This document shows, piece after piece, positions 467 to 38,665 of a stretch of DNA of 41,126 nt. The position numbers and the translations under genes are program-made. The notes below the pieces were generated by a model. It ran no database searches. It saw nothing but the letters and a program-made list of their open reading frames with translations, and was not told where the DNA came from. Numbering within the stretch: position 1 is the first letter of the stretch; the number at the start of each line of letters is the position of its first letter. Source of the DNA: Abyssibacter profundi (lineage in GTDB: Bacteria; Pseudomonadota; Gammaproteobacteria; Nevskiales; OUC007); assembly GCF_003151135.1 (NCBI RefSeq), contig NZ_QEQK01000021.1, positions 1 to 41,126 of the forward strand, given 5' to 3'.

Positions 467-1623
<1,157 letters not shown>

Positions 1624-17923: not shown

Positions 17924-18589
17924 TCAGAAGGCACCGAGCTGAAAATCCAGTCCAGTCCCCGACCGCCGGTCCACTGCGGCCACATGCCGCAGGACAGCAG
18001 GGCGCCGCAGGCCGAATCGATAGCGCAGTTCCGCGCCCGCCATGTCGACACCCGGATTATCGCGACGGATTCCACCATTGGAGATGTGCTGCACCCGGTA
18101 GCGCAGCTCCAGGCGCCGCGCATCATCCAGATAGCCCCCCACCGCCAGGTGCGAGGTGAAGTGGAAATGCCCGCCCAGTTCGTCGCCCGCAAACTGCGAT
18201 TCACTGAGCCAGGTTGGGGCCAGGCCGATGGCAATCTCGATGGGCCAGCGCCGCGCTGACGACCACTCAGGCCCAATCGAAACGATGGCACCCTGCTGTT
18301 CGCGGGCACGCAGGGTGCCCGCCACAGCATTCAAACGCACCCGGCCGGGCACCCAGTGTCGAGGCAGCTCGATGGCCTGGAGATCGAGCTTGAGTGACAC
18401 CGCCTGCTGCTGCAGACCGTCGAAGTGTTTGAACGCCGTCTGTCCCTGCAGGCCAATGGCCTCGACCCGCGCCAATGGGGACTGGGCCTGTGCGGCAGCC
18501 GATAGCATCAACAACCCGATAAATCCCAAGCGCAAGGCCCATGCCTGCCACCGCACAGATGGGGGTATCCGTTCAATCGATTCGTCCAT
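17924..18589 (-). CDS. PagL-like lipid A 3-O-deacylase (acyloxyacyl hydrolase family)
   Basis: About 221 residues: a signal peptide (cleavage near AAAQAQ) then an 8-strand beta-barrel pattern. The catalytic region YRVQHISNGGIRRDNPG carries the His-x-Ser pair of PagL (His168, Ser170 from the chosen start), with Asp182 near the position of the third residue. PagL enzymes in the outer membrane remove a fatty acid from lipid A. ATG 18589 is chosen because GAGGG lies eight bases upstream; an in-frame TTG two codons before is possible. A MarR-type operator is 19 bases upstream of the ATG, and the marR gene is adjacent. Confidence 0.83.
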   Translation of the reverse strand: MDESIERIPPSVRWQAWALRLGFIGLLMLSAAAQAQSPLARVEAIGLQGQTAFKHFDGLQQQAVSLKLDLQAIELPRHWVPGRVRLNAVAGTLRAREQQGAIVSIGPEWSSARRWPIEIAIGLAPTWLSESQFAGDELGGHFHFTSHLAVGGYLDDARRLELRYRVQHISNGGIRRDNPGVDMAGAELRYRFGLRRPAVLRHVAAVDRRSGTGLDFQLGAF

Positions 18590-18607
18590 GGTCAATCCCT
18601 CTGTGAA

Positions 18608-21749: not shown

Positions 21750-24700
21750 CTAGCTCGTCGGGCAGGCGTCGCCGACGAGATTGATGCAACTGCGGTTCGT
21801 GTTGCCGTAGGCATCACGAATACCGCCCGGGGCGATGTAGGCCGGGCCGTCGCCGACGGTGGCCTCCCAGTTCAGGCCATCCGGACTTTGCGCGGGCACG
21901 GTCCGAATCTGGCCACCGGCTTCCACCGTGGTCACCTCCACCTGCTCGCCCACGCCAGTATCCCGCCAGGGTCGGAAGCTGCAGCGATGGCAGTACTGCT
22001 CCTCGACACCACCGGCATAGCGATGCATGTTGCGCTCGTTCCGCAGCCAGGGCATGAGCGACGCATCTCCCGCGGCGACAACCGACCAGGTGTCCGGGTA
22101 GTCGATGGGCCCCACCGTGCGCGGGCCGAACTGGTTTGTGGGTTCACGCGTGTTGGCACCGCGCTGGAACGCCTCGTGCACGGTCACCGGGCCCAGGCCG
22201 AAGCGGACGATGCCCGCATTGACGGCGGCCTGTTCGGCAGTAATCCCGCCCCAGGGTCGCACCTCGAAGGGATCGCTGGTCAAGGCATAGTCGACCGGGC
22301 CACCCAGATCCTGCCGCTGGCCCGCGATCACGAACCGGTAGGTCCCCGCTGGCGTGGCATACGGCCCAAGCGGGCGGCTGCTGTCATTCGCATCGGTGAC
22401 CGCCACCTCAGAGGCAAACGCCTCATAGCCTGCGGTCCACACCCATTCGAATTGCCCGGCGCGCCAGGCACCGTAGTCGGCCGGATCGGGAATCACCACA
22501 CCCTGGAAGTCACCGTCGCCCTCGATGTAGGTCCCGCCCAGGAAGTCGACATGCAGCGGCACCTCGCCCTGCTGGTCGCCCACGACGATCCATTGCTCGC
22601 CTTCGAGCCGCTCCACCGTCACCGTCGGCATGCCCAGCCAGGTCGCCCCGCCGATCCACTGGACCGTCGCGGCGTCAAAGCGCTCGATGTCCTGCGGCTG
22701 CGTCACAATGCTCGGCGTGCCGCCGTCGGTCGGTTGGGTCAGGTCGTAGACCAGACGCACGCCCCGGCCGATTTCACCCAGCGACTGCGCCAGCAGTTCT
22801 GCCCGGCCCGATTCGGCCAGATACGCCAGATCGCGCGGTGACGGCATCATGCCCGCCCCACCATTCAGACTGGCGGCCAACCGCGACATGCGCGTGGCCA
22901 GGAAGTCCGCGCCATGCGGGCCCAGGCCGGCCAATGCCTTGCGGTAGTGGTCATGCGCCCGGTACTCGCGATACGCCGGCATGTAGCCCCAGTAGTCATT
23001 GGCCATGCCCACCGGAATCACCAGTCCATAGCCCTGATCCGGGTGCTCTTCATGCGTGAAGTTGCCGAGAATCTGGGCCGGGTCGGTCGGCTCGGCCTCG
23101 GCATGCAGCGGCGTCCACAGGCCGCCGTTCGCATCGGCCCGGATCAACTCGTCATCCCAGCCCGCAGCATTGTTGTGAATCTGCGCCTTCATCACATCAA
23201 AGGCCGTGCGTGTGGTGCTCAGCAGGCTGCCATTGCCGCGGCTGGGGTGTGGACACACGGCGGTGTCGGCATCCACCGTGCAACCGACTTCATCGGCACC
23301 GTGGACGAAGTCACCATTGGCGCCGGGATCACGCAGCGGGTTGTCACCGGCATAGCCCACATCCCAGTCCCAGCCCGTGTGAATATCGCCGGCCACCTGG
23401 TTCAGACGGCTGATGACGTTGAGCGCCGGATCGGTGAACTGCTCGCATGGACAGAAAGTCACGGCGACATCGCCCAGCTTGAAGGCCTGGATCGGCACCG
23501 TGGCCTGTTCTTCGACCAGCCCCAGCGTGGTGGCGCTGTAGCTCACCGGCAAGGGCACGCCCAGCTCGGCCAGCTGATCGGCGAGTCCGCCCGTGACGCT
23601 GGTCAGCGCCGCATGCACGTCGTCGTAGCTCACCGGCGGCTCCTCTCCGAAGAACTCGGTGAGCGCGTCCTCAAAGGGCTCGACGACCGTGCCCTCAACA
23701 TCATCGGCCACGTGTTCGCAATCCGGGAAGCCGATCACCGGCACCCCTGGATTGGCGTCGTAATACAAGCGGTCCGCATTGCAGTTCGACACCCCGGGGA
23801 TGGGCCGCGTCACCGGCGGCGCGAAGCGCTGATAGGCATAGTCGACCACAAAGTCATTGCTGCGGGCGGCGAACTGGTGGGGATCCCAGGGCGTGTCGGT
23901 GGCGATCCGCTCCAGCGCCTCCAGCACCGTGTCGGCGGCCTGCAGGGCCGCGCGATGCGCGCCGGCAAACGCGGCCTCCTGATACTCGTGACGCTCGGCC
24001 CCATCGTGAGCCCGCTCATCCTTATGCGGCCCGGCGGTGCCGGTCTCGGACTGCGACATCAAATTGATGGCGCCGGTCTCGCGATCCAGCAATCGCATGG
24101 TTGCGTGGGTCAGGTCGCCGGAGATCACTTCCTCGCCCCAAACCCATTCGGGGTGCACACCCAGCACCACCCAGTTGATCAGGTTGTCGCCGGTCACGGC
24201 ATCATCAAAGCGCAGCACGTACAGCTGCCGCGTGGTGTAGTCGTAGGGCTGCCCGGCCGGGGTATTGGGGCTGCGCTGTTCCTGCGAAATCTTGGGCCCG
24301 TAGGTATGACCACGGACGTCGTTGGCATACACGGCCGCACCACCCATGGTCACCGGTCGCATGGACTCGGCCGCCTCGACGATGGCATCACGCATCTGCT
24401 GCGCCATGTAGTCATAAAAGCGGATGTCGAATACATCCTGGAAGATCCAGGTGCCAAAGGCCGGGGTGGAGTAGAACGGCGAGGCATGTGAATGCGACAC
24501 CGTCATGGCCAGATTGGCCTCGGTAATACCGGTGGGCGTGCGGCCCTCCAGCACGGCCAGCGCATCGTGCTCGGCCAGCAGTTGCACCAGCCGGCGCCGC
24601 ATCAGGTCGTTGGGCAGGTACAGGTCGTTGGTCGCAACGGCCACACGCTTGCCATTGCCGCCCTCGACCACCAGCGCCCGTGTGGTGATGCGGTCCGCCA

Positions 24701-27700
24701 GGGTGTCGGAACTCACCTTGCGCGTCGCGTGCATGTACGGGTCGTAGCCACGCCCGCCGTCCACGCCGGCACCTGTCGCCGCGAACTGACCCGCCGATGG
24801 CCCCATGTGCCAGCTGGCATCGACAATGGCCGCGCCGGCCTTGGCCACGCCGTCACCCCCCAGCGGGACATCGGCAATCAACGCACATTCCGGTGCACCG
24901 GCCAGCAGAGCTTCACATTGCTGGGCCAGCATGCCCAGCGCTTGTTCCGCGCCCAGCAACAAGGTGCCGGTCAGCAAGTCGAATACTTCGCAGAACTCGC
25001 TCGACGGGCTTTGCGCGTCGCATTGCGCCTGCAGTTCCGTCACCGCAGCCTCGGCAGCTTCTGACACATTGCTAGGTGGCGGCGGCGCGGTGGCCGGGGT
25101 TTGCCCCGGCGGCAGCAGCTGCACGGTATGCAGGCCGGCCGGCAAGGCAATGTCGATCTCACCGGCAACCCGGCGGGCCTGCCGCTGGCCATTGACCCAG
25201 AGATCCACCTCGACGCTCAGCGCCGTGAGCCGCAGCGTCACGTCACCATCGGTCATCACCTGGCCATCGACTGGCTGGCTCAGGTCCAGCGCCATGCGCG
25301 TGACATCCAGCGACGCGGCGGTGAGCCCGGTCAGTGTCGCCTCAAAGGCGTTGGCCAGCGGCTCGTCGCCGACCTCAACCCACTCCAGGCCCGACCGCAC
25401 AAAGGGTGTGCTGTGCCCTGCCGCAAGAATCGGACTGGAAGCCGCCGGTGCATCTGGCCACAGGCCGGTCTGCGGCACGGGCACGATGCTCGCACCCGGC
25501 AGCGCCTGCGAGGTCACATCGATCTGGCCCGTGACGGAGGTATCGCGCGGATTGGCCGGATCAACACCCCGCACCACCAGACCGTCGACCCAGTAGGCAC
25601 CGTCCGGCGCAAAGGCAAAAGTCGCATCCCGTGGATCGGGACGCACCGTATTCAGCGCATCCACCAGCGCCGGCACCAGCTTGTAGGTGACCTGTCGCGG
25701 ATTCGGGTCGATAGCAAACCGCTGCAGATAGCGCGCACCGTCAACCCATTCGTCAATGGCGGCCTGGGAGAAGTGCTCGTAGCCGATAAAGCGCAGGAAG
25801 TCCGAGCGGTAGCCCAGCTCGGTCAGGCGGTCGGCCAGCCGTTCCACGCCCGGGAACGGCACCAGTTCATCGGTGGTGCCGTGATGGATGGACAGCGGGA
25901 AGTGGCGGGCATTCTCCAGCAAGCGGAAATTGAGCTGGGCATTGGCATCGCCGTCATTGGCCTCGATAAAGCAGGCGCTGCCGGATTCACCCCCGGCCTC
26001 GAAGGTCTGCGTGCACAGGTCCACATCCGGGCCGATCCCGGTCCAGGCACCCTGGGTGGTTGCACCCGAGCTGCTATAGCCGGCCGCGAACAGGTCTGGG
26101 TACAGCAGCCCGAACAAATACGTGCCGTAGCCGCCCATGGAATAGCCGCTGAGATATCGGCGGCGGCTGTCCACGTTCAGCGCCAGCGCCTGGGCCAGAC
26201 CCGTGGCGGCATCAACCGTCGGGGCACGGTCGGACACATCCAACCCTTCGACGTCCATCATGACCTCGAAGACATCCTGATGCGCATCGGTGGTGTACCA
26301 GCTCGACGTGCCTCGGCCGCGTGGGGTCACGACGATGTTGCCGACGTCCTCACCCAGTTGGCGGATCAATCGGGGTGTCCAGGCCGCGCCGCTATGGCCC
26401 TTGCCGCCGCGATAGTGCAGCCAATACGTGATGGGCGTCGGCGTGCTGCCGTCATAGCCACTGGGGATGTAAAGCCCGTAATGCTGCAGGCGGCCGTTCT
26501 CGCCCCCTTCGGTGGAAATATTCGCGCCCGACAGGAATTGACGCTCGTGGTAGCCCACGCCCGGGCGGACCCGTTCGCTCAGCCCCCCGGTCATCGAGGC
26601 GACATCGATCAGGTTCACGAAGGCATCGACACGGCCGGCATGCAGCGCCAGCGCCTGATGCTGTTCGTTGTAAACCCCGGCAATGGGCTCGCCGAAGCGA
26701 TAGGCCACATTGGACGGCCGGCCCTCAGCATCCAGGGTCAGCGCGGTCATGCGCAGCAGCCCATCGACGGCAAGCGCCTCCAGCGGCAGCACGGCTTCAA
26801 CCGCGTTGTGCTCGGCACTGGCCTGCACGACACCACCCAGCTCCACGGCCTCGCCCGAGGCAATGGACCAGGCCGTGACGCTGCCCTGGCGCAGGCGAAC
26901 CGCCAGATCGAACTGATCCGTTTGCAGCCCGTGGCCAATACCGGCTCCACGCGGCGCATCATCCTGGGTATCGAATAGCAGCAGCAGATCGGCTGTCGCG
27001 GCATCGACCAGATTCACCAGCCGGGCCAACACAAACAACTCGCTGCCGTTGGAGGCCAGCCGCAATTCATGCAGGTCGGTCCCATCGGCCAAGCCGGTCT
27101 CGCCGTAGCTGTCGGAGGCCCCCACTGGCTTGGGCACGCCCAACTGATCACCCACTGCCTGTTCCAGCTGATCGATACGGCGTGCGCGATCGTTGATCTC
27201 GATCACCGGCCCCAACAAGGCCAGCCGACGAGCGTCGTCGCCGTTGTCCGCGCCCCGGGCGTCGAACAGGTAGTCGGTGTAGACATGCTCGCCCGCCGAC
27301 CAATGCTGCGTACCCCCCAGATAGCTGGACGCCCCCGCCCAGTCGGACGGGTTGCCATCGACAGTCTTGTGGCTGGGAACGACGGGCGGCAGCGCTTCGG
27401 AAACCAGCCCCCCGCGCACCAGCGGGCGCGACAATGCAGGCAGGACATCCGGCACGGCGTCATTAAAGGCTGCGCACAGATCATCGCCCGAGGCATCGCA
27501 TTGCTCGGCCACCGTGGCCAGCAACAGGGCCAGCGTGTCGCCGCCCAGATGATCAAAGCCGGCATTGAACACGCAGTTCGGTCCGCTCTCGTCGAAACCA
27601 CATTGCTGGATCGCCGCGGCAAAGCCCTCGACATCCGGTGGCGACAGCGCAAACACGGCGGCACAGAAGGCCTCCGCACCCTCTTCGCTGATCTGGCTGG

Positions 27701-30700
27701 CCGCGTCCACACAGTCGGCTTCGGTGAAGCCACCCGTGCCCCCGCTGCCTGTGCCCGCGTCACCCGGCAGCACCGGCGGCACGGCCGGGCATTCGGCGCG
27801 GCTGGCGACGATCCGCTGGGTATTGGTATCGATCAACCGCCCCTGCTCATGCAGGAAGTGCGATTTCTGACACATGCCGAACGCCGTCCGGCGCGGGTAC
27901 TGGTGGGGGTCTTCGTCATCGGCCCGTGGCGGCACATTGCCAATGGGCGGCGAGGCCGTCTTGCCCTCGTCGAACTCGATGAATCCGGACTTGTCCGTCC
28001 GGCAGGGCGCGACGGCGCAGCCGGGTTCGTCGTAGCGGGCCTCGGCATCGCGGCCGACCAGCGGGATGTCCCAGAACGGCGCGGTATCGGGATCACGCGC
28101 GTCGAAGAACGCCTCGCGTGAGGCATAGACGAAAGGCACATCCTCGCCCGGCCGGCGGTGGTACAAATCGCCAACCTGGGTGCCGATGGTCCGCGCCATC
28201 ACCTGGGCACTCCAGTGCGTCACCTGATGATCCGCAAAGGCCGGGTGCAGCAGCACCTGATTGTCCGGCCCACCCAGCGCCTGGTTATCGGTGATGTGAT
28301 GGGCGTAGCCGTTGTTCTCGCTGCGATCCCACAGCATTTGGATCAAGGCAAAGCCGAGGTCTCGATCCAGATCGTTGGTGTAGGACAGATACAGTGGCAA
28401 CGCATACGGAGGCAGCCCGTCAAAGTTGTAGGCCTTGTCAAAATCGACGCTACGCCGTAGCAGCGTCGAATAGTTCATGCCGACCACGCCCAGCACGCCA
28501 CGGGTAATGTCCTTGGACAAGGCCACCACCGGACCGCCGCTGATGCCGCCCTGGGAGTTGCCGTCGTAAAACACCTCGCGGTTGGAAAACACCGGCTGCC
28601 CGGCCTGCTGGAACGCCGGGTGGGCGCCGAATCCGTCCGGATGGCGCAGCGCACGCGCCAGGAACAGGAAGTTCAGCAAACCCTGCTGCGAGGCATCCGG
28701 CACGACCTGGAAATTGGACAGGTCCAGCAGCGAGCCCAGCACGTTCACCAGATCGCCGGTGGAAAAGCCGAACAAGTCGACGCCGCAGAACAGGAAATTG
28801 TGATCCGAAGAGAATTCCGGCACGCGGTCATAGTTCACTGCCTGATGGCCATCGAGCAGGCCGTGGCCGTAAACGCCGGGCCGCGCAGGGTTGTCCGGCG
28901 AGGCATCGGCCGGTATCTGGCAGGTGAAGCGCGTGGTCATCGTACCGGTTGAATCTGGCAGCCCGTCGCCGAAACGCGAGCCCACGGGATCGGCCGGGTT
29001 CAGACCATCCGCCGGGTTGTAGAACAAGCGGTTAGGCGGCAGCGAACCGCCATCGGCGATACCCAGCACCTCGGCACAGCCATCGGCAATGTCGGCCTGC
29101 GGGAAGCTGTTGCATAGCGCTTCCAGCTGCAGGGACAGATTGTCCACCGGGGCGGGGTCCGTCGGCGTGACATAACTGGGTACGGTCAATGTGCCCTCGA
29201 TACGCCGAGCAATGCGCCGCGAGCTGCTATCACCGTAGGGCTGCTCGGTCACACGGTCGATGGTGAAGCCCGGCGCCGCACCCAGATCGGTGATGGCGCC
29301 GCTGGCGTCCTCAACCTGACCCAGGTGATTGCGGAAGGCGTCGTCACGCATATGCCGCAGCCGGGCAATATTGTTTTCCGTACTGGCGACCGTGAAGTCC
29401 CAGGCCAGATACAGCGCCTCGTTACCGGCCGTGGCGATCCCCGCCGACTCCAGCACCGGGAACACGTCGCGGGCCAGTGCATCGCAGCGCTCGGCCACCG
29501 GTGGCAGCTGCGTGGCCCGGGCGTCGCGGCAGGTGGCGAACGCGGGCTGGGCGGTGATCGGAGCACCGGCCTGATCAACCAACGACTTCAGCACCACGAC
29601 ATAGCGCTGCCCTTCATCAAAGTTGGTTGCCGGACGGATTAACATCGCCGCCTGCGCACCCGCGGGGTTGGGCGTGCCCTGCCCCGGCAACAGCAGGCCG
29701 GCATTGAGGTTGATCTCGGCCCAGACCGGATGCGGCTCGCCCGTCTCGGCATTGAGCACCACCACCGAACTGCCGGCGACATCCAGCGACGCCGGGATAT
29801 GGCTCAGCGGCGGCGCGCCGGGGATGCTGCCATCGGCGTTCGCGGCGAGATCCGGCACAAACGTGACCAGCATCTGACCTGGCGAGAAGCCGTCATTGCG
29901 GTTCCACTCGGTGGGTTCGATGGGCTTGCCCGCGGTGTTGCGCGGCATGGCCAGCACATCAAAATTCACCCGTCGGCCGGTCCCCGCCGCCTGTGGGCTG
30001 CCCTCCGGTGCGGTCACGGTGAAATGGTTGCTGGGAAACGGCAGCAGGCAGTGCGCCGGGTCCAGCACATCACAACCGGCCACGGCGGCCTGCAGGGCAT
30101 CACCGATCAGCATGCTGTCGTCGGGCTCATCGCTGCCCGCGCCCTCGAATACGGCGCACACGCCTTCGGGCAGACCGGCATCGCGGCAGGGTTCAGCCAG
30201 CGGGGTATCCGGGTTGAGCAGGCTGCAGAATTCCTCCGGCCCGCCATTGTCCAGACAGGCACCGGCCAGACCGCGCTGCACGTAGTCCATCCGCTGGCCG
30301 ATGATGTTGAAGATGCAACCCTCGGCCGCCGGGTCGGCCTCGCAGGCCTGCAGATAGGGCGGCACCTGCTCGCTGTTCTCGGCATCGAACAAGGGCAGAT
30401 AACCCTGTGCGCGCAGCAGCGGCGCCGTCAGCGGCCCCAGCGAGACAAATTCCTCGTAGCCGGTAAACGGCAGGGTGAAGCCATCGTCGCCGCTGGCGTT
30501 GATGTAGCTGAACTCCTCCTCGGGCAGGATGTAGCCGAAGGAGTTCTGGGTCAGGCCCAGCAACATCACATGATCGCCGGGCGCGGCCAAGGAGCGGACG
30601 AATGCGCCGAACGTGCCGGTTGCCTCTCCGGGCAATGTCACCAGCTCCAGCCCGCTTCCGGTCTCACCCAGACTGACCCGCGACACCAGCGTCTGCGCGG

Positions 30701-33700
30701 TGGGCGTGACCTGCGGCAGCGTGGTTAGCACCGGGGCGATCTCCGGACCGATGCCGGGAATATCCGCCACCGGCAGCTCCAGGAAATCGTAGTAGCGGTT
30801 GAATGCGCCCAGCAGCCCGGCACCGATGAACAAAGGATTGGTCACGGGCAGCAACACGGTTTCATGCCGCACGGTCAGGCCACCATCGATGATGCGGTCC
30901 AGCGTGAAGCCTTCGGCATCTGTGGCCATGCCGGCGCCGCGGCTGCGCACCCGGTCGTAGGGTGTCTCGCCGCTGGTCGGCCCAGAGGCCGAGGCATCGG
31001 CGATGGGGCCGTTGAAGTACAGGGACACGCTGCCCGGATACTGCTGCTCCAGATGGTCCACCGCACCGAGGATGTAGTCCGGGTGCGGCACACGCGGGTC
31101 CTCGTTGATCGAGGTCGGGTGGGCGTTGAACTGCAGCAAGGTGCCCAGCACCTCACCGCTGCGCAGGCCGCGGGCCTTCATCAGCGTGGCCAGGGTGTCG
31201 GCGTCTTCCTCGGGGTCGAGCCGGCGAGGCCGCCGGTAGTTGTTCCACTGCGCCATGTCGCCATGGCTGACCTCGAGCTGCGCCGGCTCCAGCCCGGCCA
31301 TGGCTTCCAGCGCGACCTGGGCAGCCGCCGGGTACAGCGTGTTGCGAATCCAGTCCTGCGGCACACCACCCCACAAGCCTTGCAGATCGGCGCCGGCGTG
31401 GCTGTGCGTCTGGCCAAAGAGAATGTTGTCCGCCGCGATGCCCGTGGCCGCGACAACGGCCGCGCGCAGCTCGTTCTGGATCACATTGCCGGCCCCGATG
31501 GCGTCGAGCACCAGGAACAACACCTGGGTGCGCGAGTCATCGGCGTTGCGCTGTTCGACGAACAACGCACGAATCCAGGTCTGCTCAGGGCCATGCGGCC
31601 CTTCATGGAAACGCTCGGACGCCGGCTCCGTCAGGTTCTCGCCCAGGGCACCAAACGGATCGGGGAAATTCCCGGCCGGGTCGATGCCAAAGCCGCCCAG
31701 GTTGAACTTCTGCAGGTGGGTCGCCCCTGCGAATCGCGGCTCTTCGATGCCGTCGATATGCGCCTGGGACGGCACCACCGAGGCTTTGGCTGCGCCGATG
31801 CGCAGCTTACCCACGGGAATGTCGTACACACCGACGGTGACGGTATCGGTATCCGATTTGCCACGCGCATCGGTCACCGTCACCTGGAAGACCAGCTCGC
31901 TGTCGGCCTCGACTTCCGGTGCGACGAAGTTGGCCACCGCGGAGTCCGCCTCGGTCAACTCGGCCGTGGGCCCGCTGAGCTGGGTCCAGGCGTAGTCGGT
32001 GATCTCGTCATCGGCATCGGTACTGGCGGCCGCGCTCAGCACCACGGTCTGGCCTTCGTCGGTTTGCTGATCGGCCCCGGCATCCGCCACCGGCGGCTCG
32101 TTGGGCGTTATCGTCACGCTCAGCTCATCGCTGGCCGAGGCGCCCTCGTTGTCGGTCACCACCAGGCGCAGGGTTAGCGTGCTGGGCACGTCGACATCCG
32201 GCGCCGTGAACTGCGCCACCGGCTGGTCGGCATCATCGATGGTCAGATCGGCGTCGATCACCGACCAGGCGTACTGCTGAATCGTGCCGTCGCTGTCGGC
32301 ACTCGCCTGGCCGTCCAGCGTCACCACATCCAGCGCATCGACGGCCTGGTCTTCACCGGCCGCCGCGGTCGGCGCGGCGTTTACCGGCTGCACGTTCACG
32401 GTCATCTGATCACTGGCCGTTGCGCCTTCGGCATCGGTCACCGTCACCTCAAACCGCAGGCTTAACACCTCGGTCGTCACCGGCGCGACGAACCGCGCCT
32501 GGGCGGTGTCGGCGGCCTCCAATGTCACCGCGGTGCCCGCCTGCTGCTGCCAGGCGAACTGCAACGCATCGCCGTCGGCATCGCTGCTGGCCGAGGCATC
32601 CAGTGTCACCTCGGTCTGCTCGTTGACAGTCTGATCATCGCCCGCCGCCGCCACGGGCGGGGCATTACCGGCCCGCACCGTCACCCGCACTTGATCGCGG
32701 GCGCTGGCGCCGTCGTTATCGGTCACGGTGAGTTCAAAAACCAGGACTTGCTCGGCCGGCGTATCCGGGGCCACGAACCGGGCCTGCGGGGTGTCGGCAT
32801 CCACAAGCGTGATCGCGCTGCTGTTGAGCACCTGCCAGGCGTAGCTGACCAGCGCGCCGTCGCTGTCGGCACTGGCGCGACCATCCAGCGTGACGTCCGC
32901 TGCCGGGTCGACGGTCTGATCGGCACCTGCATCGGCCGTGGGCACTGCATTCACCGGCGGGTTGCCCGGCACATCACGGACGATGACCGACACCACATCG
33001 GCCGAGCGCGCACCCTGGTCGTCGGTGGCGACAACCTGGAACTCCAGCCGCGTATCGGTATTGACCTGCGGCGCGGAGAACGTGGCGTTGGCGGACTGCG
33101 CAGCCGTCAGGCTCACAGCCGGGCCGGCGACCTGCGTCCATGCCAGCCCCGTCACGCTGCCATCGCTGTCGGTGGCGCTGGCCGACAAGGTGGCGCTGCT
33201 GCCTTCGGACACCTCGGCCGGCGCCTGCGCCGTGACCAGGGGCGGCGTGTTGGGCTCGGGGTCGGCGAGTTCGTCCTGTGTCTGCTGGAAATGCGCAGCC
33301 GCCGCCTCGGCGCTGACCAGGCTGCGACTGGTCTTGCGAGCGGCCAGCCCACCCGTGGCTGCGGCAATGAACTCGGCCACGGCCGGGTCAGCTCCGAACT
33401 CGTCCAGGGATTGGGCAAAGTCCAGGCTGCGACCCAGCCCCGCCGTGCGGGTTTGCCGGGTCAGCGTGAGTCCGGTGTCGGGATCGGCGTCCGCATCTAG
33501 CGTCAGCATCAAGCGAATGATGTTGAGCACGGCCGGCGGATCGGCGAACAGATCCTCGCCTGTGGCACCCGGCACCAGCTCCACCGGCGTGATGACGGCG
33601 GCGCCAGGGGCCGAACCCAGCTGGATATCGCCGATGCTGAACTGCACCGACTCGCCCGCGTCGTAATCGAACTGGCCCAGCGCATTGGTCAGCTGCTGCT

Positions 33701-33869
33701 GCCCCGCGGCGCGTACCTGCAAGCCGGCCACGCGCGCATCGACGAAGACGCCGCTCAGGCGTTCGGGCGGCTGAGTCACGGGCGGATTGTCACCGCTACC
33801 GCTGCCACCGCCCCCACAGGCACACACCAAGCTCGTGGCCGCAAGGGCCAGCACGCGACGCATCGTCAT
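21750..33869 (-). CDS. Giant multi-domain secreted lipoprotein: PKD repeats plus two ceramidase-like and two serine-hydrolase domains
   Basis: A 4,039-residue lipoprotein (lipobox LVCAC, Cys18, then a Gly/Ser linker). In order: an N-terminal domain (to about 205); five PKD/Ig-like repeats of about 92 residues (about 205-680); ceramidase-like domain 1 (from about 690, QTHSHAGADLQGLWGG near 820); a Cys-rich linker (about 1160-1260); a lipase-like domain (from about 1275, GNSQGG near 1770); a second Cys-rich linker (about 2045-2145); a CBM9/DOMON-like sandwich (about 2170); an esterase (from about 2460; GYSMGG near 2575, HGTTDELVP, YEHFS near 2695); a third Cys linker (about 2935-3000); ceramidase-like domain 2 (from about 3010, VSHSHASPFYS near 3122) and a beta-rich tail. 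GGGAG lies eight bases before ATG 33869. No stop interrupts 12.1 kb. Substrates are unproven; sphingolipid or ester breakdown at the cell surface is likely. Confidence 0.88.
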   Translation of the reverse strand: MTMRRVLALAATSLVCACGGGGSGSGDNPPVTQPPERLSGVFVDARVAGLQVRAAGQQQLTNALGQFDYDAGESVQFSIGDIQLGSAPGAAVITPVELVPGATGEDLFADPPAVLNIIRLMLTLDADADPDTGLTLTRQTRTAGLGRSLDFAQSLDEFGADPAVAEFIAAATGGLAARKTSRSLVSAEAAAAHFQQTQDELADPEPNTPPLVTAQAPAEVSEGSSATLSASATDSDGSVTGLAWTQVAGPAVSLTAAQSANATFSAPQVNTDTRLEFQVVATDDQGARSADVVSVIVRDVPGNPPVNAVPTADAGADQTVDPAADVTLDGRASADSDGALVSYAWQVLNSSAITLVDADTPQARFVAPDTPAEQVLVFELTVTDNDGASARDQVRVTVRAGNAPPVAAAGDDQTVNEQTEVTLDASASSDADGDALQFAWQQQAGTAVTLEAADTAQARFVAPVTTEVLSLRFEVTVTDAEGATASDQMTVNVQPVNAAPTAAAGEDQAVDALDVVTLDGQASADSDGTIQQYAWSVIDADLTIDDADQPVAQFTAPDVDVPSTLTLRLVVTDNEGASASDELSVTITPNEPPVADAGADQQTDEGQTVVLSAAASTDADDEITDYAWTQLSGPTAELTEADSAVANFVAPEVEADSELVFQVTVTDARGKSDTDTVTVGVYDIPVGKLRIGAAKASVVPSQAHIDGIEEPRFAGATHLQKFNLGGFGIDPAGNFPDPFGALGENLTEPASERFHEGPHGPEQTWIRALFVEQRNADDSRTQVLFLVLDAIGAGNVIQNELRAAVVAATGIAADNILFGQTHSHAGADLQGLWGGVPQDWIRNTLYPAAAQVALEAMAGLEPAQLEVSHGDMAQWNNYRRPRRLDPEEDADTLATLMKARGLRSGEVLGTLLQFNAHPTSINEDPRVPHPDYILGAVDHLEQQYPGSVSLYFNGPIADASASGPTSGETPYDRVRSRGAGMATDAEGFTLDRIIDGGLTVRHETVLLPVTNPLFIGAGLLGAFNRYYDFLELPVADIPGIGPEIAPVLTTLPQVTPTAQTLVSRVSLGETGSGLELVTLPGEATGTFGAFVRSLAAPGDHVMLLGLTQNSFGYILPEEEFSYINASGDDGFTLPFTGYEEFVSLGPLTAPLLRAQGYLPLFDAENSEQVPPYLQACEADPAAEGCIFNIIGQRMDYVQRGLAGACLDNGGPEEFCSLLNPDTPLAEPCRDAGLPEGVCAVFEGAGSDEPDDSMLIGDALQAAVAGCDVLDPAHCLLPFPSNHFTVTAPEGSPQAAGTGRRVNFDVLAMPRNTAGKPIEPTEWNRNDGFSPGQMLVTFVPDLAANADGSIPGAPPLSHIPASLDVAGSSVVVLNAETGEPHPVWAEINLNAGLLLPGQGTPNPAGAQAAMLIRPATNFDEGQRYVVVLKSLVDQAGAPITAQPAFATCRDARATQLPPVAERCDALARDVFPVLESAGIATAGNEALYLAWDFTVASTENNIARLRHMRDDAFRNHLGQVEDASGAITDLGAAPGFTIDRVTEQPYGDSSSRRIARRIEGTLTVPSYVTPTDPAPVDNLSLQLEALCNSFPQADIADGCAEVLGIADGGSLPPNRLFYNPADGLNPADPVGSRFGDGLPDSTGTMTTRFTCQIPADASPDNPARPGVYGHGLLDGHQAVNYDRVPEFSSDHNFLFCGVDLFGFSTGDLVNVLGSLLDLSNFQVVPDASQQGLLNFLFLARALRHPDGFGAHPAFQQAGQPVFSNREVFYDGNSQGGISGGPVVALSKDITRGVLGVVGMNYSTLLRRSVDFDKAYNFDGLPPYALPLYLSYTNDLDRDLGFALIQMLWDRSENNGYAHHITDNQALGGPDNQVLLHPAFADHQVTHWSAQVMARTIGTQVGDLYHRRPGEDVPFVYASREAFFDARDPDTAPFWDIPLVGRDAEARYDEPGCAVAPCRTDKSGFIEFDEGKTASPPIGNVPPRADDEDPHQYPRRTAFGMCQKSHFLHEQGRLIDTNTQRIVASRAECPAVPPVLPGDAGTGSGGTGGFTEADCVDAASQISEEGAEAFCAAVFALSPPDVEGFAAAIQQCGFDESGPNCVFNAGFDHLGGDTLALLLATVAEQCDASGDDLCAAFNDAVPDVLPALSRPLVRGGLVSEALPPVVPSHKTVDGNPSDWAGASSYLGGTQHWSAGEHVYTDYLFDARGADNGDDARRLALLGPVIEINDRARRIDQLEQAVGDQLGVPKPVGASDSYGETGLADGTDLHELRLASNGSELFVLARLVNLVDAATADLLLLFDTQDDAPRGAGIGHGLQTDQFDLAVRLRQGSVTAWSIASGEAVELGGVVQASAEHNAVEAVLPLEALAVDGLLRMTALTLDAEGRPSNVAYRFGEPIAGVYNEQHQALALHAGRVDAFVNLIDVASMTGGLSERVRPGVGYHERQFLSGANISTEGGENGRLQHYGLYIPSGYDGSTPTPITYWLHYRGGKGHSGAAWTPRLIRQLGEDVGNIVVTPRGRGTSSWYTTDAHQDVFEVMMDVEGLDVSDRAPTVDAATGLAQALALNVDSRRRYLSGYSMGGYGTYLFGLLYPDLFAAGYSSSGATTQGAWTGIGPDVDLCTQTFEAGGESGSACFIEANDGDANAQLNFRLLENARHFPLSIHHGTTDELVPFPGVERLADRLTELGYRSDFLRFIGYEHFSQAAIDEWVDGARYLQRFAIDPNPRQVTYKLVPALVDALNTVRPDPRDATFAFAPDGAYWVDGLVVRGVDPANPRDTSVTGQIDVTSQALPGASIVPVPQTGLWPDAPAASSPILAAGHSTPFVRSGLEWVEVGDEPLANAFEATLTGLTAASLDVTRMALDLSQPVDGQVMTDGDVTLRLTALSVEVDLWVNGQRQARRVAGEIDIALPAGLHTVQLLPPGQTPATAPPPPSNVSEAAEAAVTELQAQCDAQSPSSEFCEVFDLLTGTLLLGAEQALGMLAQQCEALLAGAPECALIADVPLGGDGVAKAGAAIVDASWHMGPSAGQFAATGAGVDGGRGYDPYMHATRKVSSDTLADRITTRALVVEGGNGKRVAVATNDLYLPNDLMRRRLVQLLAEHDALAVLEGRTPTGITEANLAMTVSHSHASPFYSTPAFGTWIFQDVFDIRFYDYMAQQMRDAIVEAAESMRPVTMGGAAVYANDVRGHTYGPKISQEQRSPNTPAGQPYDYTTRQLYVLRFDDAVTGDNLINWVVLGVHPEWVWGEEVISGDLTHATMRLLDRETGAINLMSQSETGTAGPHKDERAHDGAERHEYQEAAFAGAHRAALQAADTVLEALERIATDTPWDPHQFAARSNDFVVDYAYQRFAPPVTRPIPGVSNCNADRLYYDANPGVPVIGFPDCEHVADDVEGTVVEPFEDALTEFFGEEPPVSYDDVHAALTSVTGGLADQLAELGVPLPVSYSATTLGLVEEQATVPIQAFKLGDVAVTFCPCEQFTDPALNVISRLNQVAGDIHTGWDWDVGYAGDNPLRDPGANGDFVHGADEVGCTVDADTAVCPHPSRGNGSLLSTTRTAFDVMKAQIHNNAAGWDDELIRADANGGLWTPLHAEAEPTDPAQILGNFTHEEHPDQGYGLVIPVGMANDYWGYMPAYREYRAHDHYRKALAGLGPHGADFLATRMSRLAASLNGGAGMMPSPRDLAYLAESGRAELLAQSLGEIGRGVRLVYDLTQPTDGGTPSIVTQPQDIERFDAATVQWIGGATWLGMPTVTVERLEGEQWIVVGDQQGEVPLHVDFLGGTYIEGDGDFQGVVIPDPADYGAWRAGQFEWVWTAGYEAFASEVAVTDANDSSRPLGPYATPAGTYRFVIAGQRQDLGGPVDYALTSDPFEVRPWGGITAEQAAVNAGIVRFGLGPVTVHEAFQRGANTREPTNQFGPRTVGPIDYPDTWSVVAAGDASLMPWLRNERNMHRYAGGVEEQYCHRCSFRPWRDTGVGEQVEVTTVEAGGQIRTVPAQSPDGLNWEATVGDGPAYIAPGGIRDAYGNTNRSCINLVGDACPTS

Positions 33870-34228
33870 GTTGTCGTCTCCCACAACCTGCAGCCTGCAG
33901 GTCGCCACACCGGTCGAATCATTAGCGGGGCCCGCTCAGACGACGGGCCACCTTATTGATCGTTCAGTCTGCGCCAATCGATGGGTTCATCACATCGTAA
34001 AAATGACTCAAGGCCACAACAGGCCCGACCGGTGGCAGGCGGGGCGCCGACACCGCCGACCCGCACCCAGGCCTTTACGGCGGCTTTACAAAAAGCCGCC
34101 AACTTGCCGACGAGCGGCGGGCAAGAACGCGTTTTTTAGCAGCACGTTCAGTCAAAACTTGACACAAGATTCAGCAGAAAACGCCTACCGTCGAAGCATC
34201 ACAATAAAGTGCGGCGAAGAGACGATTC
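33870..34228. promoter_or_regulatory. Divergent intergenic region between the giant gene and a small wHTH-like gene
   Basis: About 360 bases without a gene. Seen: a 17-base palindrome ACCTGCAG-C-CTGCAGGT (33886-33902) in the leader of the giant gene, a stem-loop GGCGGCTTT/AAAGCCGCC (34079-34100), and a TTGACA -35-like hexamer (34159-34164) pointing to the plus-strand gene without a good -10. No RNA gene was recognised. Confidence 0.45.
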
Positions 34229-34701: not shown

Positions 34702-35844
34702 TCAGTCCGCGAGCGAGGCCAGCCGCCTGAGCAAGGCCACCACGTCCGGGCCGGTCTGGTAGATCCCGAACCCGAAACGCAGGCGGTCACCTCGCACATC
34801 GGTCATGACCCCAGCCTCGGCCAGGCGCTGGTGCAGCGTGGCGGCCATCGGCGTGCGAAAGGTCAGAAAATTGCCGCGCGAATGCGGCTCGGGCGGCACC
34901 AGCATGTCGCGCGTCAGTCCACCCGCCGGCAGGCCATCGAGCAACTGCTGCTGCAGGGTTTCGACATGCAGATGGATGAGTCCCGGCGTCAGGTGCTGCT
35001 GCTCCAACCACCCCTGCACGGCATTGAAGCGGTACAAGGCCGTCGGGTCGAAGGTGGACCCGGCAAAGCGCATGGCATTCGCGGCATAGGCCACGCCCTG
35101 CTGGGCACCCGATAATCCGTCGAACCCCGCAAACCAGCCCGTGTTGACCGGCCGCTCGCCCCAGCCAGGGGGGCAGTGCATGAAACAGGCCCCCTCTCCC
35201 GCCATGGCGTACTTGTATCCACCGGCCAGGTAGAACGCCCGGTGGGCGATGGTCGAGCAATCCACCTCCATCGCCATGAAGGCGTGGTAGCCATCGATGG
35301 CGACAACCGCTTCGGGCGATTGCACGGCGGCCACCGCCGCCGGTAGATCCGGCACCACAAAGCCGGAGTTGAAGAACACCTGCGACAGGTAGACCAGATC
35401 GAACGCGCCGGCGGCGGCCTCGGCCCAGCGCGACTGGAAACTGTCGAAGGGGGCCACCGGCACGCGCACCGCCGTGGCCAGGCCCGCTTCCTCCCAGCGC
35501 GCCAGCTGACGGGCAAAGGAGTGGAACTCGCTATCGGTGGTCAGCACGCGCATGGGCTGACGCTGCACCGTGCTGGCCAGCCGCAGGACAAACTCATGCA
35601 GGTTGGGGGCGAATACCACGCTCTCCGCCGCGGGCAGCTTGAGCAGCCGGGCGATGTGCCGCTGCGCGGTGGGCACTACAGTGTCGAACACCGGCTCCCA
35701 TTTGGCGTCGATCCAGCGCGCGGCATCATCCCAGGCCTGCAGCTGGGCATCGCGCGCGACATCCGGCCAGGGATGGTGGCTATGGGCGGCAAAGTGCAGC
35801 CGCTCGGGGTCGGCCAGAAAACGGGAGAAGGCAGCGGTATACAT
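34702..35844 (-). CDS. PLP-dependent class V aminotransferase (kynureninase-like)
   Basis: A 380-residue fold-type I PLP enzyme. Asp184 in VAIDGYHAF binds the pyridine nitrogen, and Lys211 in LAGGYKYAMAGEG is the Schiff-base lysine. The overall order and HSHHPWPDV near the start resemble kynureninase and cysteine-desulfurase-like proteins, but no kynurenine pathway genes are nearby, so the substrate is open. ATG 35844 has no visible ribosome site, because a MITE-end relic begins six bases upstream. It converges with the hypothetical gene at 34229-34675. Confidence 0.85.
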   Translation of the reverse strand: MYTAAFSRFLADPERLHFAAHSHHPWPDVARDAQLQAWDDAARWIDAKWEPVFDTVVPTAQRHIARLLKLPAAESVVFAPNLHEFVLRLASTVQRQPMRVLTTDSEFHSFARQLARWEEAGLATAVRVPVAPFDSFQSRWAEAAAGAFDLVYLSQVFFNSGFVVPDLPAAVAAVQSPEAVVAIDGYHAFMAMEVDCSTIAHRAFYLAGGYKYAMAGEGACFMHCPPGWGERPVNTGWFAGFDGLSGAQQGVAYAANAMRFAGSTFDPTALYRFNAVQGWLEQQHLTPGLIHLHVETLQQQLLDGLPAGGLTRDMLVPPEPHSRGNFLTFRTPMAATLHQRLAEAGVMTDVRGDRLRFGFGIYQTGPDVVALLRRLASLAD

Positions 35845-35849
35845 GCGTT

Positions 35850-35888
35850 AAGGAAACACGAATCTATTCGCACCGCCAAGTTGCTGCG
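35850..35888 (+). repeat. Solo MITE-end relic upstream of the PLP-enzyme gene
   Basis: AAGGAAACACGAATCTATTC followed by GCACCGCCAAGTTGCTGC is a diverged copy of the left end of the MITE at 20130-20395. Only one end is present. It directly abuts the start region of the minus-strand gene, as does the relic at 5904-5947. Confidence 0.65.
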
Positions 35889-35956
35889 CGCGCTGCGCAA
35901 AGCCGCCCGCGCTCGTGCGACACTGCGGGGCAGACTTCACCGTATGACTGGATGCC

Positions 35957-36916
35957 GTGAAAACCCTATATCCCGAACTGCCGGCCCGTGTGACCGGCAC
36001 CCTGCCCCCCGAAGACGGCCACACCGTGTGGTTCGAAGAGTCGGGCAACCCGGACGGAATTCCCGTGGTGTTCGTGCATGGCGGCCCCGGTGGCGGCACC
36101 CAGCCGCTGTACCGCCGCTTTTTCGATCCCGACCGCTATCGCATCGTGCTGTTCGACCAGCGCGGCTGCGGTCGGTCCACGCCCCACGCCGAGCTGGAAC
36201 ACAACAACACCTGGGCGCTGGTCAGCGACATGGAGCGACTGCGCGAGCACTTGGACATCAAGGCCTGGGTCGTGTTTGGCGGCTCCTGGGGCTCGACACT
36301 GTCGCTGGCCTACTCGCAAAACCATCCCGACCGCTGCCTGGCCATCATTCTGCGCGGCATTTTCCTGCTGCGGCAGCAGGAGCTGGAATGGTTTTATCAG
36401 GACGGTGCCAGCCGCATGTTTCCCGATGCCTGGCAGCGTTACTACCACGCCATTCCGGAAGCGGAACGCGATGACCTGCTGCAGGCCTACTACCGCCGCC
36501 TGACCCACGACGACCCCGAGGTTCGTATCCCGGCGGCCCGCGCCTGGGCTACCTGGGAGGCCTCGACCAGCAAGCTCATCCCCAGCGATTCGCTGGTGCA
36601 GTCTTTTGAGGATGCCAAGTTCGCAGAAGCCTTTGCCCGCATCGAGGCCCACTACTTCGTGCATGGCGGGTTTCTCGACCACCCTGACCAGCTCATCCAC
36701 AACGTGGAGCGCATCCGCCACATCCCGGGCTTTATCGTCCAGGGCCGTTACGACGTGGTCTGCCCGCCGCAAACGGCCTGGGACCTGCATCGGGCCTGGC
36801 CGGAAGCCGAGTTCCACATGGTGCCGGATGCCGGCCATTCGGCCACCGAGCCCGGCATCGTCGACCGACTGGTGGATGCCACCGACCGCACGGCCGATCG
36901 CCTGTTCGGGGGCTAA
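35957..36916 (+). CDS. pip: Proline iminopeptidase (prolyl aminopeptidase, family S33)
   Basis: A 319-residue alpha/beta-hydrolase that removes N-terminal proline from peptides in the cytoplasm. Seen: the oxyanion segment HGGPGGG (41-47), DQRGCGRSTPHAELEHNNTW, the nucleophile Ser110 in GGSWGS, the acid in QGRYDVVCPP and the His in DAGHS. These are the signature motifs of bacterial prolyl aminopeptidases, and the length is typical. The start is GTG 35957; no in-frame ATG gives the conserved N-terminus. It converges with the HD-like gene 22 bases downstream. Confidence 0.94.
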   Translation: MKTLYPELPARVTGTLPPEDGHTVWFEESGNPDGIPVVFVHGGPGGGTQPLYRRFFDPDRYRIVLFDQRGCGRSTPHAELEHNNTWALVSDMERLREHLDIKAWVVFGGSWGSTLSLAYSQNHPDRCLAIILRGIFLLRQQELEWFYQDGASRMFPDAWQRYYHAIPEAERDDLLQAYYRRLTHDDPEVRIPAARAWATWEASTSKLIPSDSLVQSFEDAKFAEAFARIEAHYFVHGGFLDHPDQLIHNVERIRHIPGFIVQGRYDVVCPPQTAWDLHRAWPEAEFHMVPDAGHSATEPGIVDRLVDATDRTADRLFGG

Positions 36917-36938
36917 GCCGCCTGCTGCCGGTGGGCCG

Positions 36939-37478
36939 TTACCAGCGGAACATCGGCAGCGGTGACCAGGGCTTGCGCAGAAAGCGCCGGCCGCCCAATT
37001 GCATCAACCGCTTGTGAAAGCCGGCGTTGGCGAAGCGGGCGCGCCCCGCCCGCAGCACCTCGCCGTCGATGCCATAACGCACCAGCCCCAACATGACATC
37101 GGCGGAATCCGCCCGCCGGTAGGGCTCGGCCACATCGGCATGCGGGCCGGTATAAGGCCGGAGCTTGTGGTGCCAGACCACCATGGCCACGACTGGATCC
37201 ACCCAGCCGGGCTCACCCATCTCGACCAGAGCGTCGCGCGCCAGGTCGGCTGAAGGGTCCAGATAATCCAGCGTGCCGTGCGTCCAGATGCCGAGGTCGT
37301 GGTAGATCGTGGCCACCGCGGCCTGTCGCATGGCGGTCTCGTCACTGACCAGCGAGTCGAATGCGTGCAGCACACGCGCACAGTGGTTGCGGTAGGCCAC
37401 CAGATCGGTACCCAGCGCCGCCTGGTATGGCTTCAGCCCGTCGTCCAGCGCGATCAGTGCAAGATCCAGCGGTGTCAT
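36939..37478 (-). CDS. HD-domain-like putative phosphohydrolase
   Basis: About 179 residues. Metal-ligand-like residues in the HD order are visible: His32 (NHCARVLH), His60-Asp61 (IYHDLGIW) and a later WHHKLRPY. This suggests an HD-superfamily hydrolase of unknown substrate. The start is ATG 37478, supported by GGAGG five bases upstream. It overlaps the stop codon of the preceding gene as ATGA, so the two are translationally coupled. A longer frame starting at 37505 would run inside the preceding gene. Confidence 0.75.
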   Translation of the reverse strand: MTPLDLALIALDDGLKPYQAALGTDLVAYRNHCARVLHAFDSLVSDETAMRQAAVATIYHDLGIWTHGTLDYLDPSADLARDALVEMGEPGWVDPVVAMVVWHHKLRPYTGPHADVAEPYRRADSADVMLGLVRYGIDGEVLRAGRARFANAGFHKRLMQLGGRRFLRKPWSPLPMFRW

Positions 37479-38665
37479 ACGGCCCTCCCTGGGCGTGGCG
37501 TCCATTGGCTGTCGAAACGCATGCCGGCCTGTTGCAGGCGGTGGATGAGCGGCTCGCCAAACGCCATGGCCGGGGTGATCACACCGGCATGGTCCGGCGT
37601 CTTATCCAGCAGCACACAAAGCGCGGCCTCACCGAGCATCTTGGCGGTTTCGTCATAACCGGGGTCGCCACCGCTGACCTGCGTGCGCAGCGCCTGCCCC
37701 CCGGCATCAGCCAGAAACCGCACCTCAAACCAGCTTCTGGCTCGCCGCTCCGGGCTGGGCCCTTGCCCGGCCGTACGTCGCGATAACAGCCAGCGCCGGG
37801 TTGGCGGTATCTGCGCCAGTGCGAAGAGCGTTGTCGCCCCGGCCCCGCCTGCCAGCACCAGCGGCCAGTGCTTGAGCTGCAGATAATGGGCGTAGCGAAA
37901 ATCCGGTCCGTAGCGGTCCAGTGCCCGGGCCGAACGCCGGATCACCTGCGGGTCGATGGTAGGAAACGGCACCGCCCAGCCGCCGATCTGCGGCTCCCGG
38001 CGCAGCCCCGGCGGCAAGGCCCGAACCTGCCGGCCCGAGGGCGCGGGTGAGCGCCCCCGTTGGCGGCGCAGCTGCAGGTAATGCCTGGCCCGCGAGAACG
38101 CATGGATGGCCGACTGCCAGGTGCCTCCAGACACATCCATAGACAGCGACACATAGCCGCGAATCCGCAAGGGCACATCCGGCGGGCATTGCAACACGGT
38201 ATACAGCACGCCCAGATCATGCGGAATGGAATCGAAGCCGCAGCAATTGATGATCTTTGCGCCCGTGTCGCGGGCCACCGCGTCGTAGCGCTGCAGGCAC
38301 AGCTCGACAAATTCCGGCTCGCCGGTCAGGTCCAGATAATGCGTCCCGGCCTCGGCGCAGGCTTTAACCAGCGGCTCGCCGTAGTGAATGTACGGCCCCA
38401 CCGTCGTGACCACCGCCCGGGTCGACGCCGCCATGGCGGCCAGCGATTCCGGATTGTTCACATCGGCCTGCACCAGCCCCAGCGACTCGCAGGCGGGCGA
38501 CAGCTTGGCCAAGCGACGCTTCACATCGGCCAGCTTGCGCACGCTACGCCCGGCCAGCGCCCAGCGCAGCGAGTCCGGCGCATGGCGCGCCAGGTACTCC
38601 GCCGTGAGGCCGCCGGTAAACCCGGTGGCACCAAACAGAATCAGGTCATTCATGGGTTGAGGCAC
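37475..38665 (-). CDS. Saccharopine dehydrogenase-like NAD(P)-binding protein (trans-acting enoyl reductase type)
   Basis: A 396-residue protein with an N-terminal Rossmann motif GATGFTGGLTAEYLARHAP and the family segments VVTTVGPYIHYGEPLVKACAEAG and YLDLTGEPEF, plus NCCGFDSIPHDLG. This combination marks the saccharopine dehydrogenase NADP-binding family that includes mycobacterial trans-acting enoyl reductases. The reaction here is unknown. GTG 38665 has AGGGA seven bases before it; ATG 38653 is an alternative and nearer the conserved start. Coupled to the HD-like gene through ATGA. Confidence 0.88.
   Translation of the reverse strand: MPQPMNDLILFGATGFTGGLTAEYLARHAPDSLRWALAGRSVRKLADVKRRLAKLSPACESLGLVQADVNNPESLAAMAASTRAVVTTVGPYIHYGEPLVKACAEAGTHYLDLTGEPEFVELCLQRYDAVARDTGAKIINCCGFDSIPHDLGVLYTVLQCPPDVPLRIRGYVSLSMDVSGGTWQSAIHAFSRARHYLQLRRQRGRSPAPSGRQVRALPPGLRREPQIGGWAVPFPTIDPQVIRRSARALDRYGPDFRYAHYLQLKHWPLVLAGGAGATTLFALAQIPPTRRWLLSRRTAGQGPSPERRARSWFEVRFLADAGGQALRTQVSGGDPGYDETAKMLGEAALCVLLDKTPDHAGVITPAMAFGEPLIHRLQQAGMRFDSQWTPRPGRAV

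Follow-up and report, generated by a model that had tools for sequence, protein, structure and literature searches.

A 4,039-residue putative lipoprotein of Abyssibacter profundi joins two neutral-ceramidase-superfamily domains and two alpha/beta hydrolases in a single reading frame

Domains related to secreted lipid- and ester-cleaving enzymes are here found on one chain, and the question raised by this locus is whether such a chain is a true gene product and, if so, on what it might act. The DNA analysed (hereafter the window, 41,126 nucleotides) is the whole 41-kb contig of a 3.74-Mb genome of Abyssibacter profundi, which is 99.75% complete. An initial annotation, made from the sequence of the window, had described one cell-anchored lipoprotein combining four hydrolase-like domains. 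The gene and its parts are as follows.

21750-33869, minus strand: whole gene of the 4,039-aa putative multi-hydrolase lipoprotein (single open frame; GGGAG before the ATG)
33816-33869, minus strand: signal peptide and likely lipobox Cys18 (V-C-A-C, Gly at +2), residues 1-18, read by eye
33255-33815, minus strand: N-terminal module, residues 19-205 (HMM matches in other giant relatives)
31809-33251, minus strand: five PKD-like repeats, residues 207-687 (Pfam K319L-like_PKD, PF22352, 1.2e-78)
30135-31808, minus strand: cer1, neutral-ceramidase-superfamily domain, residues 688-1245 (profile against PDB)
27765-30122, minus strand: hyd, alpha/beta hydrolase, residues 1250-2035 (AlphaFold2 model, VIA, conservation)
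27420-27764, minus strand: linker, residues 2036-2150 (64% identity to relative G063)
26550-27419, minus strand: module ahead of the esterase, residues 2151-2440 (one stand-alone gene with the esterase in relatives)
25680-26549, minus strand: serine esterase S2577/D2667/H2699, residues 2441-2730 (NF050058; PDB 3wyd; triad in G063)
25065-25679, minus strand: esterase-module tail, residues 2731-2935 (same order in stand-alone esterase genes)
21768-24893, minus strand: cer2, neutral-ceramidase-superfamily domain with Ig-like tail, residues 2993-4034 (PF04734; PDB profile; fold)

The minus-strand open frame at 21750-33908 comprises 4,052 codons counted from a GTG, and the ATG at 33869, with GGGAG upstream, gives a product of 4,039 aa. 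The frame from 21750 to 33869 contains no stop or frameshift, in agreement with the initial annotation. GC3 is even along the whole frame (0.78-0.86), and each tested module has a dN/dS of about 0.11-0.28 when compared with G061 and G063, which indicates that this is no chance frame; by this comparison of coding sequences, all tested modules are under purifying selection. The fact that relatives carry the modules as separate genes would favour an artefact of assembly or annotation in which distinct genes were merged. However, a search for intact orthologues, which the initial annotation had proposed, found fused forms in three related genomes from separate assemblies, at 64-78% identity: G061 (3,071 aa), G062 (at least 2,306 aa) and G063 (at least 4,620 aa). 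These orthologues, the purifying selection with dN/dS well under 1, the uniform GC3 and the unbroken frame rule out a misassembly, and an artefact of either kind is extremely improbable.

In the neighbourhood, genes for a class-V aminotransferase-like, a saccharopine-dehydrogenase-like and a 188-aa protein lie upstream of the giant gene (window 34702-38665), and they also adjoin the giant gene in G061 (L043). A gene for a PagL-type lipid A 3-O-deacylase lies downstream (window 17924-18595). An IS110-type transposase gene is located at the contig end (window 673-1623), where the GC content is lower (about 0.51-0.56).

At the N-terminus, the V-C-A-C18 sequence was recognised by eye as a putative lipobox. 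The N-terminal module has HMM matches in G061, G004, G002, G011, G059, G060 and G065. The five PKD-like repeats noted at first correspond to five Pfam stretches. The Pfam search gave no match for the N-terminal module, the linker, residues 2151-2440 or the esterase tail; the CBM9/DOMON label given to residues 2151-2440 in the initial annotation is therefore without a Pfam match.

The two domains first called ceramidase-like, with their HSHAG (residues 822-826) and HSHAS (residues 3126-3130) motifs, are related to neutral ceramidases by profile, and cer2 also by fold. Single-sequence PDB searches gave chance matches only for both domains, and profiles were required. With the cer1 profile, built from 31 homologues, neutral ceramidases were the only PDB entries listed (4wgk, 1.3e-6; 2zws, 0.0054). 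Pfam Ceramidase_alk was matched at 2.6e-9 in the whole-protein search, and cer1 lies below the curated Pfam cut-off (21.2 vs 32.1 bits). The zinc ligands of the Pseudomonas aeruginosa ceramidase (PaCD), which we take to be H97, H204, E411 and Y448, with Ser274 as the nucleophile, were placed using an alignment of the canonical ceramidase of the window genome with 2zws. All four ligand positions, which the initial annotation had proposed to check, are conserved in both domains, without variation among the aligned homologues: H822, H917, E1082 and Y1113 of cer1 are kept in 30-31 of its 31 homologues, and H3126, H3239, E3476 and Y3629 of cer2 in 28-29 of 29. The amidase Asp-x-Ser of cer1, D958-A-S960, is present in 31/31 homologues and is in register with GDVS (GDVSP) of the related domain cer3, whereas the full GDVSPN amidase motif of neutral ceramidases (PMC5874051) is not kept in cer1.

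The cer2 profile, built from 29 homologues, matched neutral ceramidases only (4wgk, 5e-7). The structure model of cer2 (pTM 0.81) was matched to 2zws by Foldseek at 6.5e-27, and its VIA Z against neutral ceramidases is 25.0-25.6 over 511-530 residues; the chains ranked next are unrelated, at Z 4.4. The domain lacks the Asp-x-Ser amidase motif; the window sequence there is QSETGTAGPH, with an uncertain register. At window 24024-24053 (residues 3273-3282), cer2 has Ala3279 where nine other compared domains of its subtype, cer2a, have Ser, and the amidase-motif position varies among relatives between T, S and A. In one alignment, also of uncertain register, the Ser of the other subtype, cer2b, falls at the catalytic position. 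Because the register is uncertain, cer2 may use another residue for catalysis, or may be inactive.

Compared with the known neutral ceramidases (PF04734; 2zws and 2zxc of P. aeruginosa, 4wgk of human), cer1 and cer2 share the profile match and the four zinc-ligand positions, cer1 the Asp-x-Ser, and cer2 the fold and the Ig-like tail. However, the identity in structural alignments is 12-16%, the scores are under the Pfam cut-off, cer2 is without the Asp-x-Ser, and the giant chain combines two such domains with two other hydrolases.

The GNSQGG motif of the first of these hydrolases (residues 1770-1775) was noted at first and sits, according to the model, in an alpha/beta-hydrolase fold. The AlphaFold2 model of hyd has a pTM of 0.83 and alpha/beta-hydrolase matches in Foldseek, and its VIA Z against an acetyl xylan esterase is 16.4. 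The nucleophile elbow G-x-S1772-Q-G-G is invariant, and D1880 and H1989 are the likely acid and base, judging from conservation and position. The fold is shared with esterases of the alpha/beta-hydrolase type, among them acetyl xylan esterase and CE15 (Z ~16), but hyd has an extra N-terminal region and no detectable sequence relation to them; its profile matched no solved structure in the PDB.

The second, with GYSMGG at residues 2575-2580 as first noted, was matched by NCBIfam NF050058 at residues 2456-2685 (5.4e-16), under the cut-off of that model (58.9 vs 150 bits), and by LC-Est1C (PDB 3wyd) at 1.4e-10. Its triad of S2577, D2667 and H2699 is identical in G063. The Ser-Asp-His triad and GYSMGG are shared with type-1 extracellular short-chain PHA depolymerases and feruloyl esterases, whereas the low NF050058 score and the embedding in a giant putative lipoprotein, between flanking modules of its own, set this esterase apart. 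As its nearest models are of the PHA-depolymerase and feruloyl-esterase types, it points to esters, not ceramide.

The same modules were found, fused or adjacent, across the order, and the window gene is not unique. Of the 85 genomes searched within the order, 26 carry cer2, 29 carry cer1 and 34 carry hyd; the esterase query also matched 34 genomes, of which about half a dozen span the whole module and the others are weak general-esterase matches. In 397 genomes of the phylum from outside the order, cer2 had a single weak match, and a broad distribution of cer2 is thereby ruled out. However, the actinobacterial contigs L009 and L010 contain cer2, and in L010 (9644-14341) cer4 and cer2a are fused in one frame of 1,565 aa, which suggests, on sequence, either transfer or an old origin. 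The relatives include G061 (Abyssibacter sp. SW_4_13, of the same genus as the window), G044 (Sinimarinibacterium sp. CAU 1509), G048 (Fontimonas thermophila DSM 23609) and G067 (Oceanococcus sp. BWSM_70). The fused chains have the following architectures.

Window: cer1-hyd-est-cer2a
G061, G062: cer1-hyd-cer2a
G063: cer1-hyd-est-cer3-cer2a, at least 4,620 aa
G059, G060: cer1-C-cer2b
G001, G004, G046, G048: cer1-hyd-C
G058 (L117 974-19636): cer1-hyd-S15-hyd-cer3-C-cer2b, 6,220 aa, seven gene-sized modules
G065: cer1-cer3-C
G044, G002: cer4-cer2a
G065, G002: cer4-cer2b

In G035, G041 and G050-G055, cer1 and cer2b are stand-alone genes that follow each other as neighbours, several with 4-bp overlaps, and G044 carries cer1, C, cer2b and cer4-cer2a in a row. 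The order of cer1 before cer2 holds in every chain with both and in the split gene pairs. Stand-alone hyd occurs in G064 and G066; the esterase module stands alone in G004, G066 and others, and is fused only in the window and G063. Module C (about 730 aa; L051 14404-16848 and the fused copies) is strongly conserved and recurs in many fused chains, and gave no Pfam or NCBIfam match. Profile comparison connects cer1 with cer4 (2.9e-22), cer1 with cer3 (1.5e-12) and cer2b with cer3 (1e-21), which indicates that the module kit contains four ceramidase-superfamily types. The many fused combinations rule out a uniquely fused gene: the window gene belongs to a large group of fused forms drawn from an order-wide module set, and it seems that a secreted pathway of degradation has been joined into single molecules on several occasions. 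There is good support for a fusion, probably anchored to the cell, of two ceramidase-superfamily domains with two alpha/beta hydrolases, and the literature search returned no paper on this fusion, on ceramidase in these genera, on giant ceramidase genes or on GH92 with ceramidase.

The reading that we favour, with moderate confidence, is a surface-anchored single-chain assembly of amidase and esterase activities acting on lipid, born by gene fusion. The chain would have arisen from secreted lipoprotein genes that are separate and often adjacent in related species. Its N-terminal cysteine would carry a lipid anchored in the outer membrane, with the PKD repeats as a stalk behind which cer1, hyd, the esterase module and cer2 are strung. 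From the folds and the conserved residues we infer that cer1 cleaves an N-acyl (amide) bond with its zinc site and Asp-x-Ser and that the two serine hydrolases cleave ester bonds, either in the same lipids or in others that occur with them; cer2 would act on a related amide, or would have turned into a binding domain, and the tether would keep the products beside the cell. In its favour, a canonical ceramidase is found in 21/28 genomes with cer1 vs 19/57 without it, counts in which the species are not independent; p is 0.0004, or 0.027 without family f6, for hand-made lists with relatedness ignored, and the co-occurrence may reflect shared ancestry only. The absence of Asp-x-Ser in cer2 weighs against this reading, as do the missing sequence match of hyd to solved structures and the proximity of the esterase to PHA depolymerases and feruloyl esterases and not to lipases. 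Nothing in the analysis points to algal lipid, one of the substrates suggested in the initial annotation.

A stricter alternative is sphingolipid degradation, in which cer1 and cer2, as ceramidases, free sphingosine and fatty acid while the esterases remove other acyl groups. Besides the fact that cer1 and cer2 match only neutral ceramidases among solved structures, the window genome also encodes a canonical neutral ceramidase, likely a lipoprotein (G000:C20:52838-54415; L085 7284-9671, minus strand). A gene for a PhoD-type phosphatase look-alike adjoins the canonical ceramidase of the window genome. In three relatives, AraC regulators are encoded divergently from cer1, which recalls the control of CerN by SphR in Pseudomonas (PMC5150637); this parallel is weak because AraC is a very common family. 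The great distance of cer1 and cer2 from true ceramidases, with scores under the Pfam cut-off, the missing Asp-x-Ser of cer2 and the presence of a canonical ceramidase already in the genome make a strict sphingolipid pathway rather doubtful.

A glycolipid or glycan-linked ester, such as an algal or fungal mannosylated sphingolipid or glycolipid, would require the amidases and esterases to work with sugar-removing enzymes. Genes of the GH92 mannosidase family occur in 14 genomes and in 8/14 lie within a few kilobases of cer1, cer2 or cer4 genes, in three families of the order (L060 4860-7178, L046 13709-16003, L050, L132, L135, L061 and L047), hinting at glycolipids. In the models, the hyd fold resembles carbohydrate esterases, and a gene for a CehA/McbA-family metallohydrolase follows the cer genes in G044 (L051 3202-5529); in G064 a related gene is found close to hyd (L125). 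However, GH92 is unmatched in the genome of the window, a match to the alpha/beta-hydrolase fold does not by itself identify a substrate, and a glycolipid target is unlikely. If the target were a polyester from the environment or an ester of plant type, the ceramidase-fold domains would be accessories; this would fit the nearest models of the esterase, but most fused relatives are without the esterase module (G061, G062, G046, G058), cer1 is in nearly all, and the metal sites are kept in both ceramidase domains, which makes this explanation improbable.

The favoured amidase-plus-esterase assembly could also be one member of a larger set. It is plausible, though tentative, that the order holds a lineage-specific secreted kit of at least eight enzymes, including four ceramidase-superfamily types that current family models recognise poorly, repeatedly fused into surface-anchored chains of 3,000 to more than 6,000 residues for the degradation of amide- and ester-linked lipid or glycolipid. 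If this is true, the neutral-ceramidase superfamily would gain several divergent branches in environmental bacteria, and a secreted pathway would have been condensed repeatedly into one polypeptide. The co-fused and co-located enzymes would then offer a concrete route to the lipid substrate used by these bacteria, and related species, with their split and fused versions, provide natural experiments on the reasons for enzyme fusion.
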